Positions 21,209 to 25,102 of a DNA stretch of 57,954 nt are shown here, piece after piece. Source of the DNA: an uncultured Verrucomicrobiales bacterium (lineage in GTDB: Bacteria; Verrucomicrobiota; Verrucomicrobiia; Verrucomicrobiales; Akkermansiaceae); contig CALFVL010000038.1 of the NCBI GenBank assembly GCA_937928425.1, positions 1 through 57,954 on the forward strand, given 5' to 3'. A model generated the notes under the pieces. The model was not told the origin of the DNA. It ran no database searches and saw only the letters and a program-made list of their open reading frames with translations. The stretch's first letter is position 1. Each line of letters begins with the position of its first letter. A program made the position numbers and the translations under genes.

Positions 21209-22603
21209 TTAGTCTATTTTAGGAAGGGAGGCAGCCGCGATAGCCTGACCGTGGCGCTTGGTCTTCTCATCGGGCGTTTGAAAGGCTATGGTCTTAGAGA
21301 GTTCTGGGAATTCTAGACTGAGCACGCGGCGTGCTTCTTGCATAATGATTTCACCTCCTGCGCCTGAGCTCACCCGGCCGAGGAAGAGAAGATGTCTGAA
21401 TTGATAAAAATCGGCAAAGTGAGCAATCGTGTAGCCAAGGTAAGTGCCGATAGTTCGGTAGATCGCAGCAGCGCGTTCGTCGCCTTGCATCAATTTAGCT
21501 TGGACAATTTCTAGTTTCTCAGGGAGTCCAAGATCTTCGCTAAGCTCGATGCCGGAGAGTGGTAACAGGCGACTGACGGCTTGCTGTGAGAAGTACTGGA
21601 CTCCGCAACCGTCATCACCGCTCCATTCATCTTTCGCCACTCCTTCTCGGTAGTCGACGGGAACGAAGGCGAGTTCATTCATCCAGCCAGTGATGGCACC
21701 GCTGGGATGAATATAACCACCGGCGAGACTTGTCCCCATGGACAGGCCTAACACGGCGCTATCATGGATGGCCATCGCACCCGCCAGCGCGGTGACATCG
21801 CCATCATTGGCTATTTCAAAAGGAATATCATTCCACTTGTGTTTTAGATCATGAAAGAGAGGGCGGATGGATGTCTGAAAATCTTCGCGGCTCACCCCAC
21901 GGTAAAGTGAGCCCACGCGGGGCTCGTTAGAGATGTAGATGCCTGCGGCACTGCCGCCGATCGCATCGATCCTAGGAAGGTGCGCAGCGGCACGCATCAG
22001 GCTGTCTTCTATCCCTGCACGGTGATAAGCTGGATCACTCTTAAAGTAGGGATTCCATTTGACTTCTTCAGAGAAGACGACTTTTCCGTCAATCAGAGCA
22101 GCGCACTTACGGTCACTCCCGCCGAGGTCGAAGCCGATCCGATTTCCCTTAAGCTGAAACGAGTCTATCCGGCCGGTGGGAGCGGGGTGAGCTTCCTGAA
22201 TCTCTGCGTGCTCCGCATTCTGAATGGTGAAGTTTTCATTAAAGCAGCTAGCTCCCATAAACTCGTAGTCAAAGCCTCGTTTGCCATTTACCGAGTAGAT
22301 TTCTTGCAGGTGTTCTACGACATCTGCTGCATTGCTAATGCGCACGCGGGACCCACCCCACGCCCAGAGTAAAAATTTCACGATGCGTTCGCAGTATTTA
22401 TAAGTGGATGGGGCTGAGTCCTCCGACTCGGGTAGGAGGCCAGTCTCGTAGACCCATGTGCTTCCTTCTGGGCGGTCTACGGCGATGCGAATCTCACGCC
22501 GATCTGGAGCCTTGTTGACACTTGCTTGATAAGCCCGGTTCCATAATACGGCGGGGACGAACTCCGGATCAAGTTGTGGTTTACAGCGGGGAATGGTGGT
22601 CAT
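21209..22603 (-). CDS. Large ROK-family protein (sugar-kinase fold)
   Basis: A 464-residue protein, longer than typical ROK kinases (about 300). An N-terminal region of about 165 residues of no recognised family precedes the ROK core. The core shows the phosphate-1 motif IGFDLGGSDRKCAALIDG, a catalytic-type IANDGDVTALAGAMA, the GLSMGTSLAGGYI phosphate-2 loop and the C-terminal SSGAGGEIIMQEA. The ROK zinc-binding motif (GHxxxxxxxxxCxCG) is absent, replaced by a stretch around EWSGDDGCGVQYF. Substrate is unknown; hexose phosphorylation is possible. It lies downstream of glnA but is separated from it by that gene's terminator. Confidence 0.75.
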   Translation of the reverse strand: MTTIPRCKPQLDPEFVPAVLWNRAYQASVNKAPDRREIRIAVDRPEGSTWVYETGLLPESEDSAPSTYKYCERIVKFLLWAWGGSRVRISNAADVVEHLQEIYSVNGKRGFDYEFMGASCFNENFTIQNAEHAEIQEAHPAPTGRIDSFQLKGNRIGFDLGGSDRKCAALIDGKVVFSEEVKWNPYFKSDPAYHRAGIEDSLMRAAAHLPRIDAIGGSAAGIYISNEPRVGSLYRGVSREDFQTSIRPLFHDLKHKWNDIPFEIANDGDVTALAGAMAIHDSAVLGLSMGTSLAGGYIHPSGAITGWMNELAFVPVDYREGVAKDEWSGDDGCGVQYFSQQAVSRLLPLSGIELSEDLGLPEKLEIVQAKLMQGDERAAAIYRTIGTYLGYTIAHFADFYQFRHLLFLGRVSSGAGGEIIMQEARRVLSLEFPELSKTIAFQTPDEKTKRHGQAIAAASLPKID

Positions 22604-22749: not shown

Positions 22750-23757
22750 CTAGCCAACTTCCTCGATCGTCTTAAGGATACGGGAAGCGATGGCGTATGG
22801 GTCTCCCTGTGAGTTCGGGCGGCGGTCCTCGAGGTAGCCTTTCCAGTCATTCTTGGCGAATGAGTGAGGGACTCGAACGGAGGCACCACGATCGGCGATG
22901 CCCCATGAGAATTTGTCGATAGACTGAGTTTCATGGAGTCCGGTGAGGCGCTGATCATTATCAGGACCGTAGACGGCGATGTGCTCCATGCAGTTTTTCT
23001 CGAACTGAGCCATGAGCTTATCGAAGTAGTCTTTACCACCTTCTTCGCGGAGTTTCTTGGTGGAGAAGTTGGCGTGCATACCAGAGCCATTCCAGTCCCC
23101 TTTGAGAGGCTTGCAGTGGTAGTTCACATCCACTCCATACTCTTCACAGAGACGCTCGAGAAGGAAACGGGCGACCCAGATCTGGTCTGCGGCGCGCTTG
23201 GATCCTTTTCCGAAAATTTGGAATTCCCACTGGCCCATGGCGACCTCGGCGTTGATTCCCTCGTGGTTGATGCCAGCGTAGAGACAGAGGTCAAGGTGCT
23301 CATCCACGATGGCACGGCCGATGTCTCCGACATTTTTATAGCCGACGCCACAGTAGTAGCCACCTTGTGGCTCTGGGTAGCCGCCTTTCGGGAAGCCAAG
23401 GATGCCACCGTCTTTCTCGAGGAAGTATTCCTGCTCGAATCCGAACCATGCGTCGGGATCGTCGAGGATGCCTGCACGGGCGTTAGAGGGGTGGGGATTA
23501 CCGTCTGGGAGCATGACCTCACACATGACGAGGATGCCATTTTCACGAGTGCCGTCAGGGTAGAGGGCGACTGGCTTAAGAATACAGTCGGAATCACCAC
23601 CATCAGCTTGCTGGGTGGAGGAGCCATCAAAGCCCCACTCAGGGAGCTGCTCGAGGGTGGGCGTGTCATCAAATTCCTTGATGCAGCATTTCGTGCGGAG
23701 ATTAGGAACGGGCGTGTAGCCGTCCAGCCAGATGTAATCGAGTCGGTATTTAGCCAT
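22750..23757 (-). CDS. Glutamine synthetase, type II (GSII)
   Basis: A 335-residue enzyme that makes glutamine from glutamate, ammonia and ATP. Its length and motifs fit the GSII class of eukaryotes and some bacteria, not the 470-residue GSI: EWGFDGSSTQQADGGDSD, WFGFEQEYFL, GYYCGVGYKNVGDIGRAIVD, AGINHEGINAEVAMGQWEFQ, the ATP-site WNGSGMHANFSTK and GIADRGASVRVP. The GSI adenylylation Tyr region is absent, as in all GSII, so control must be by other means. A sigma-54-type promoter lies upstream and an intrinsic terminator downstream; the gene is probably a single-gene transcription unit. Confidence 0.95.
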   Translation of the reverse strand: MAKYRLDYIWLDGYTPVPNLRTKCCIKEFDDTPTLEQLPEWGFDGSSTQQADGGDSDCILKPVALYPDGTRENGILVMCEVMLPDGNPHPSNARAGILDDPDAWFGFEQEYFLEKDGGILGFPKGGYPEPQGGYYCGVGYKNVGDIGRAIVDEHLDLCLYAGINHEGINAEVAMGQWEFQIFGKGSKRAADQIWVARFLLERLCEEYGVDVNYHCKPLKGDWNGSGMHANFSTKKLREEGGKDYFDKLMAQFEKNCMEHIAVYGPDNDQRLTGLHETQSIDKFSWGIADRGASVRVPHSFAKNDWKGYLEDRRPNSQGDPYAIASRILKTIEEVG

Positions 23758-23866: not shown

Positions 23867-23884
23867 AAGCACATTCTGTGCCAA
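23867..23884 (-). promoter_or_regulatory. Sigma-54 (-24/-12) promoter for glutamine synthetase
   Basis: On the minus strand this reads TTGGCACAGAATGTGCTT. It matches the sigma-54 consensus TGGCAC-N5-TTGC with the invariant GG and GC exactly twelve bases apart and one mismatch in the -12 TTGC. The predicted transcript would start near 23858, giving a leader of about 100 bases before the glutamine synthetase ATG. The element lies between the stop of the kinase-PP2C gene and glnA. Sigma-54 control of glutamine synthetase is well known for GSI in Proteobacteria. An enhancer site was not identified. Confidence 0.72.
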
Positions 23885-23893
23885 GTGTATGAG

Positions 23894-25102
23894 TTAGATA
23901 CGGGCGATTTGAGCGAGGATGAGCGTGGTGTCATCTCGGTCATCGTTGTCGATAGCGCGCGCGCTCATGGCTTCTACGATCTGGTTTACAGGGAGATCCT
24001 CGGAGAGCATCTCGTGGATTGTTTTTTCCCAGAGTCCGTCCATGAGGCCATCTGAGCAGAGCATGAGGCGTTGACAATCTTTGAGCGGGAGGGAGCCAGT
24101 TTTCGGGAAAGGCTCGTGAGGGCTTCCGCCGAGGACATCACTAAGGACAGACTTACGGGGGTGGTTACGGTAGGCGTATTCGCTGAGTTCACCACGCTGC
24201 CATTGGTGCCAAGCTTGGTTGTCATCTTGGGTTAATTGGCGGACGCCCTCGTCGTCTATCAAGTAGAGCCGCGAATCACCGATGTGAGCCCAGAAGAGGC
24301 GTTCATGGCTGATCCAGGCCATGGTGAGGGTAGCCCCCATGCCCTGGGTGTTCCCGTTTTCGGCGGCGAGGTTCATGATGTCGTGATGGCACTTACGGAG
24401 AAGTTGATCGAGTGCGCATTGTGCTTCGTTCTCGCAGCAGAGCTGCTGGTAAAGTGCGGCGGCCTCTTTCCGGATACGGGCCATGAGCAGACGGGAGGCG
24501 AATTCGCCGGCGTTCTGTCCGCCCATGCCATCTGACACGGCGAGGACAAGGTGGGAGGGATCTAGCAGGATTTCCCCAGAGTCTGGCAAAGGATCAGTCG
24601 ATTCCGGGTTTACGGTGAGGGCGAGGAGGGCGTCATCATTTGCGAGATGGCCAGTGCCTTTTTCGCTTAAAGCAGACCAGGTGGCTCGCAGGATATTGGT
24701 CTTAGTTTCCCGGACCGCACAGGGCATGGGGAGGATTTCTGAGAGCTCGAAGTCTATTAGGCAGAACTTGCCCAGGGCCTGGGAGTAAGTGACATTACGA
24801 GGCTCTGGGTCATCGTGTTTTATTCCAAAGCGGTCCTCTAATTCTTGAAAAAGTGCAGTGGCCTTAGCGGGAGTGATCAGGGGGGCGGGAGCACCGCAGT
24901 TCGTGGTGACAAGAGTGAGTGACTCATGATCGTGACTGAGCAGGCGGGGGACATTGGTAGCACCACGATCTTCTAGTGCTTTAAGAACGGCGACTTCATT
25001 TGCGAAGCGCTTATCAGAGTGGGTGCCACGGAATTTCTTGTGAACGTGGCCCTTAAAATCGAGGCGCACGAGTGATCTGATGCCATCTTTGAGTTCCTTC
25101 AT
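23894..25102 (-). CDS. Kinase-like domain fused to PP2C-type protein phosphatase
   Basis: A 402-residue protein with two opposed activities on one chain. The N-terminal 160 residues look like a minimal Bud32/RIO/LPS-kinase-type fold: a candidate ATP-binding Lys at K22/K23 (GHVHKKFRG), Glu36, a catalytic loop KHDDPEPRN (H96, D98, N103) and the metal-binding DFE at 117-119. The C-terminal 230 residues are a PP2C/Stp1 phosphatase with LAVSDGMGGQNAGEFAS (D191), GMGATLTMAW, AHIGDSRLYLI, LCSDGLMDGLW and a final DRDDTTLIL. Metal ligands of PP2C appear complete. The kinase half lacks a glycine-rich loop, as RIO/LPS kinases may. It diverges from the RapA-like gene and lies upstream of glnA. Confidence 0.8.
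   Translation of the reverse strand: MKELKDGIRSLVRLDFKGHVHKKFRGTHSDKRFANEVAVLKALEDRGATNVPRLLSHDHESLTLVTTNCGAPAPLITPAKATALFQELEDRFGIKHDDPEPRNVTYSQALGKFCLIDFELSEILPMPCAVRETKTNILRATWSALSEKGTGHLANDDALLALTVNPESTDPLPDSGEILLDPSHLVLAVSDGMGGQNAGEFASRLLMARIRKEAAALYQQLCCENEAQCALDQLLRKCHHDIMNLAAENGNTQGMGATLTMAWISHERLFWAHIGDSRLYLIDDEGVRQLTQDDNQAWHQWQRGELSEYAYRNHPRKSVLSDVLGGSPHEPFPKTGSLPLKDCQRLMLCSDGLMDGLWEKTIHEMLSEDLPVNQIVEAMSARAIDNDDRDDTTLILAQIARI

Follow-up and report, generated by a model that had tools for sequence, protein, structure and literature searches.

A kinase-like mini-domain and a PP2C phosphatase that accompany type II glutamine synthetase in Verrucomicrobiia form a putative enzyme switch

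The 57,954-nucleotide stretch of DNA analysed here (the window), which comes from an uncultured Verrucomicrobiales bacterium, encodes a protein that joins a kinase-like region to a PP2C phosphatase. An earlier note had read the pair as an on/off switch lying between a RapA homologue and a sigma-54-controlled glutamine synthetase, which raises the question of whether the two halves belong together and what they would act on. We consider a bifunctional kinase/phosphatase switch dedicated to the neighbouring type II glutamine synthetase (GSII) to be the probable answer, with its activity and substrate deduced from the observations below.

The open reading frame of the fusion was confirmed; it reads from 25102 to 23894 on the minus strand, which the earlier note had not given, and encodes a single chain of 402 aa with the following features.

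23894 to 25102, minus strand: fusion of mini-kinase and PP2C phosphatase, 402 aa (open reading frame; 21 full-length homologues; AF2 model)
24725 to 25102, minus strand: kinase-like domain, residues 1–126 (AF2 model; PDB fold matches; standalone across Verrucomicrobiia)
25037 to 25039, minus strand: K22, presumed beta-3 ATP lysine (conserved in 94/94 relatives)
24995 to 24997, minus strand: E36, presumed alpha-C glutamate (94/94; inside model helix 29–45)
24794 to 24817, minus strand: catalytic loop H96–N103, HDDPEPRN (H96 and N103 94/94, D98 93/94; aligned to Cdc7 HRDVKPSN)
24746 to 24754, minus strand: presumed metal-binding DFE motif, residues 117–119 (D117 and E119 94/94, F118 93/94)
23897 to 24694, minus strand: PP2C phosphatase domain, residues 137–402 (PF13672; fold matches; acidic residues)

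Both halves were retained in 21 full-length homologues with identities from 86% down to about 50%, so the fusion is not a product of chance. AF2 modelled the whole protein with a mean pLDDT of 88.7, from shallow alignments of 22–23 sequences.

Residues 137–402 make up a complete PP2C of the ordinary kind, as had been supposed from the sequence. It scored 60.8 bits against Pfam PP2C_2 (PF13672; cut-off 24) over residues 181–360, matched solved bacterial PP2Cs by phmmer at E 4e-23, and carried the acidic residues D157, D191, D276, D351, and D390, which were kept in 84 of 84 relatives. PP2C structures matched the fold with Z about 28 (rmsd 4.0–4.7 Å over 240–247 residues), other PP2C entries of the same group superposed at 2.2–2.3 Å over about 220 residues, and tPphA was among the best matches. 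In full fold and metal residues this half resembles the bacterial Stp1, PstP, and PphA phosphatases; it differs from Stp1 in scoring below the cut-off of the Stp1/IreP equivalog NF033484 (155.6 vs 230 bits) and in its link to GSII.

The N-terminal part was modelled separately, because every fold match to the full-length model was a PP2C. Residues 1–136 alone gave a pLDDT of 88.4, again from a shallow alignment (22–23 sequences), and the domain is predicted to have a kinase-like fold: the 50 best PDB matches (Foldseek, E down to 2e-7; VIA) were kinases or kinase-homology domains, with one VIA exception, MSMEG_1954, whose entry title names no function. The best match was the ATP-bound RNA kinase Ark1 (Z 12.0, rmsd 2.9 Å, 113 residues, 26% identity; chain residues 3–125 aligned to model residues 7–127), followed by DAPK1, Rio2 (Z 10.9), Bud32, and PRPK with Z values of 10.6–11.0.

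The label "Bud32/RIO/LPS-kinase-like" that had been given to this region holds as a description of fold and is not supported as one of family. The domain shares with the atypical kinases Bud32/PRPK and RIO (Z 9–11) a kinase core without the large ePK C-lobe, but it is shorter, scored 16.1 bits against arch_bud32 (cut-off 125), and no KEOPS partner was seen. Kdo and Bud32 models matched the N-terminal half weakly, and the Pfam scan of 28 members gave no RIO family hits. Membership in the Bud32, RIO, or LPS kinase families found no support, given scores far below the curated cut-offs and standalone proteins too short after the DFE motif for the usual C-lobe. The Pfam and NCBIfam scans contained no model specific to the mini-kinase family. 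APH (PF01636) was the sole Pfam family matched by most members (26/28 at E<0.01); it scored 22.2 bits in the full protein and 24.3–25.6 bits as a domain (cut-off 23.2), with the best stretch covering the N-lobe only.

K22, E36, H96, N103, and D117 were invariant in 94 distinct relatives from across the class, and D98 was kept in 93. A profile of 28 class-wide relatives aligned with Cdc7 (E 0.004) such that HxD..N and DFE fell on HRD..N and DFG. By this alignment the two motifs that the earlier note had recognised, at residues 96–103 and 117–119, place H96, D98, N103, and D117 in a putative ATP site, and the kinase reading withstands the refuting conditions that the note had set. The essentially invariant K, E, HxD, N, and D set has the pattern of a working kinase, which suggests catalytic activity.

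The mini-kinase would be unusually small for a kinase with a complete set of catalytic residues, which would bear on how small a working kinase can be. Standalone members are about 125–150 aa long and end about 6–35 residues past DFE (for example in TILPHF, TILDQCS, or QVLPDLR), and thus lack the activation segment and the C-lobe helices that kinases usually have. The domain model has merely two strands before helix alpha-C and one low-confidence helix after DFE; by the standalone lengths and this model, the mini-kinase family lacks the full Hanks C-lobe (activation segment and helices F–I).

The kinase half is a class-wide protein of Verrucomicrobiia that is usually separate from the PP2C. 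It was detected in 139 of 286 genomes of the class (E<=0.001), nearly always in single copy. A phylum-wide draw of 289 genomes gave just two borderline hits outside the class (E 0.007–0.008), which the class-wide profile did not confirm, and on plasmids the kinase half was unmatched, the full-protein matches listed there falling in the phosphatase half. In 39 of 40 loci sampled across the class, the kinase gene either lay directly upstream of a PP2C gene or formed one gene with it. The arrangement of a kinase and a PP2C on one chain is conserved, although the fusion is the minority state and separate adjoining genes are usual.

Gene neighbourhoods identified the constant companion of the pair. 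The RapA assignment was borne out (NF003426, 972 bits; cut-off 576), but RapA was not conserved as a neighbour, even inside Akkermansiaceae, and was ruled out as a functional partner. Apart from PP2C and GSII, the neighbouring genes varied by locus; the constant companion was GSII, which had been mentioned merely as a neighbour. Two features of the window belong to it.

22750 to 23757, minus strand: type II glutamine synthetase (GSII, GlnII-like), presumed substrate (NF041605; solved GSII structures; co-occurrence)
23869 to 23883, minus strand: sigma-54 -24/-12 promoter element of the GSII gene, TGGCACAGAATGTGC (one mismatch)

The GSII gene lies downstream of the fusion and matched NF041605 at E 3e-111 and solved GSII structures at E of about 1e-95; its 372 bits lie under the NF041605 equivalog cut-off of 500, so we call it GSII by similarity. 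It is the single glutamine synthetase detected in the window genome. The sigma-54 control that had been proposed for it was supported by an RpoN gene in the window genome and by an equivalent site that, in 54 of the 55 loci examined, lay 80–140 bp ahead of GSII. Loose sigma-54 matches across the window were at chance level; strong sites (at least 9 of 11 positions) preceded GSII in 38 loci, vs 0.4 expected. Downstream of GSII, a 464-aa protein (21209–22603, minus strand) resembles ROK-type sugar kinases by eye and had no NCBIfam match.

With GSII called at E<1e-50, both GSII and the kinase were present in 138 of the 286 genomes and neither in 144; one had the kinase alone (G253) and three had GSII alone (G256, G338, and G172). 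The Fisher P for this co-occurrence, 1e-77, ignores shared ancestry and overstates the association because the genomes are related. At least 10 families (f1, f6, f7, f12, f13, f16, f24, f30, f32, and f40) had some members with both genes and others with neither; since the pair switches together within them, the link is not one inherited accident. Where both genes were on the same contig, they lay within 3 kb of each other in 111 of 115 genomes: GSII was upstream and divergent in 101 and downstream on the same strand in 10, all Akkermansiaceae. In the genera g7 and g10 the kinase was relocated, yet PP2C was still divergent to GSII in nine of 10 examined loci. Assembly gaps may account for some of the discordant genomes. 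Two Roseibacillus MAGs (L019 and L021) carried two tandem GSII genes after the kinase-PP2C fusion.

The distribution of GlnE was nearly complementary to that of the module. Control of glutamine synthetase by GlnE is a textbook case of covalent enzyme regulation and applies to GSI; GlnE transfers AMP onto GSI, has a nucleotidyltransferase fold, and is not homologous to the kinase-PP2C pair. The likeness is that GlnE, too, unites two opposing activities in a single chain and is linked to a glutamine synthetase. GlnE (PF03710, E<=1e-20) was found in 99 of the 286 genomes, just 12 of them with the kinase; 127 of the 139 kinase genomes had no GlnE, and none was found in the window genome. In a panel of 31 genomes, the kinase-minus G157, G184, G230, and G266 held GSI and GlnE, G172 had GSI and no clear GlnE, and G249 had GSI, GSII, kinase, and GlnE together. 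Akkermansia genomes had a long GSIII-like enzyme and neither PII nor kinase.

Because both genes travel with GSII across Verrucomicrobiia, the kinase and PP2C probably form an on/off switch for it. The kinase fold, invariant catalytic residues, complete PP2C, three-gene module, lockstep with GSII, and near exclusion of GlnE form the computed basis; enzymatic activity, a direct action on GSII, the direction of control, and the signal that sets the balance are what we infer. The mini-kinase of about 126 residues would transfer phosphate from ATP to GSII itself or to a partner that GSII binds, and the C-terminal PP2C would strip the phosphate from GSII or its partner, a cycle that could shift glutamine production up or down quickly. 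The sigma-54 promoter would set the amount of GSII and the switch its activity. The two activities would sit on separate proteins of adjacent genes in most of the class and on one chain in the window, and the module would fill for GSII the part that the two-headed GlnE plays for GSI. More tentatively, and with slightly less than even confidence, GSII in Verrucomicrobiia may be under reversible phosphorylation by its own C-lobe-less kinase and PP2C, repeatedly fused, as a replacement for adenylylation of GSI by GlnE.

That the protein is a switch dedicated to GSII is the reading that we favour, with moderate confidence, and the following observations count against it. This kinase has none of the C-lobe helices in which a protein substrate is normally held. 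The conserved Ser/Thr residues of verrucomicrobial GSII are mostly common to kinase-minus GSII as well: S225 (NGSGMH) is among those shared, although five solved GSII relatives have Ala there, and S186 (KGSKR), conserved in 70 of 73 sequences, is Ala in kinase-minus G256 and Ser in kinase-minus G338, which makes it a weak candidate for a phosphosite special to kinase-plus genomes. Lastly, G338 and G256 carry intact GSII without the kinase, and G253 has the kinase and no detected glutamine synthetase. On the supporting side, control of plant GSII by phosphorylation has been reported, with activation proposed to involve 14-3-3 binding through pentamer-decamer assembly (PMC8668187). Purely by this analogy, the switch could possibly act through GSII assembly.

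Pseudokinases usually lose catalytic residues, whereas here the catalytic and ATP-binding residues are invariant, including N103 (94/94) and the catalytic-base position D98 (93/94). This speaks against an N-terminal domain that merely senses ATP/ADP and gates the PP2C, which would then dephosphorylate GSII modified by another kinase. We regard such a sensor as unlikely, although the domain is only half as large as usual and standalone forms end so soon past DFE that little is left to hold a protein substrate. A role in sensing ATP was also suggested for ArkI, the closest match in structure, whose Km for ATP is 1.2 mM (PMC9095486).

An active kinase/phosphatase pair aimed at another nitrogen regulator such as PII, with GSII merely co-regulated, is a little less likely still. 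Among related PP2Cs, PphA of cyanobacteria dephosphorylates PII (as cited in PMC1262709), tPphA was among the best structural matches, and in G253 (L210) a PII gene (270–614) adjoins the kinase-PP2C pair (619–1871) in convergent orientation. Against this, PII occurred in both kinase-plus and kinase-minus genomes, Akkermansia excepted, so the kinase, which follows GSII almost perfectly, tracks GSII rather than PII, and the case for PII as the specific target was weakened. In kinase-minus G256, a PII gene lay near a divergent GSII (61% identity; L206, 4184–7061), hinting at another mode of regulation.

That the domain phosphorylates RNA or tRNA, as archaeal ArkI does, and that the PP2C is an unrelated neighbour is very improbable. 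The small RNA kinases ArkI and AQ578 (COG2112) share with the mini-kinase the closest solved fold, a short N-lobe, and the DFE motif. TkArkI, whose substrate is tRNA, has HGQ in its catalytic loop and, at its C terminus, two more helices and the RNA-binding motif YKR (PMC9095486); the mini-kinase has HxD in 93 of 94 sequences, and its family lacks these helices, most standalone proteins being too short past DFE for the YKR helix. The link to a protein phosphatase and GSII would also be left unexplained. Equally hard to credit is a kinase that acts on a small molecule, as APH and Kdo kinases do, which the APH matches of most members would favour, since the large substrate-binding C-lobe of APH is missing here and the fusion to a protein phosphatase would go unexplained.

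As a GSII switch, the module resembles AceK, the isocitrate dehydrogenase kinase/phosphatase, in being bifunctional and controlling one metabolic enzyme; its target differs, and AceK has, to our knowledge, no PP2C domain. Fusions of PP2C and Ser/Thr kinase were reported in 2005 in Pseudomonas and Deinococcus and likewise place both on one chain, but there the PP2C comes first, the kinase is of Hanks type, and no glutamine synthetase link is described in the available part of the report (PMC1262709). Two things appear to be new, the family of mini-kinases and the three-way link that it forms with PP2C and GSII: our literature search, of incomplete coverage, found no description of such a system and no account of quick GSII adjustment in GSII-reliant bacteria, for which the module is a concrete candidate.

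Fusion of the kinase to PP2C was found in at least three lineages, namely Akkermansiaceae, genus g61 of family f13, and genus g73 of family f27. In the concatenated tree, those of f13 and f27 were nested among unfused pairs, so fusion arose more than once. In several Akkermansiaceae genomes (G036, loci L130 and L186; G098; G111; G122; and G144), the match continues from kinase into PP2C across just one stop codon, either TGA or TAA, which suggests recent fission or, possibly, readthrough. A fused kinase-PP2C with 36% identity was also located near GSII on a 52-kb contig catalogued as viral (L147; IMG/VR UViG_3300017658_000249), which may be a miscalled bacterial contig or a provirus.
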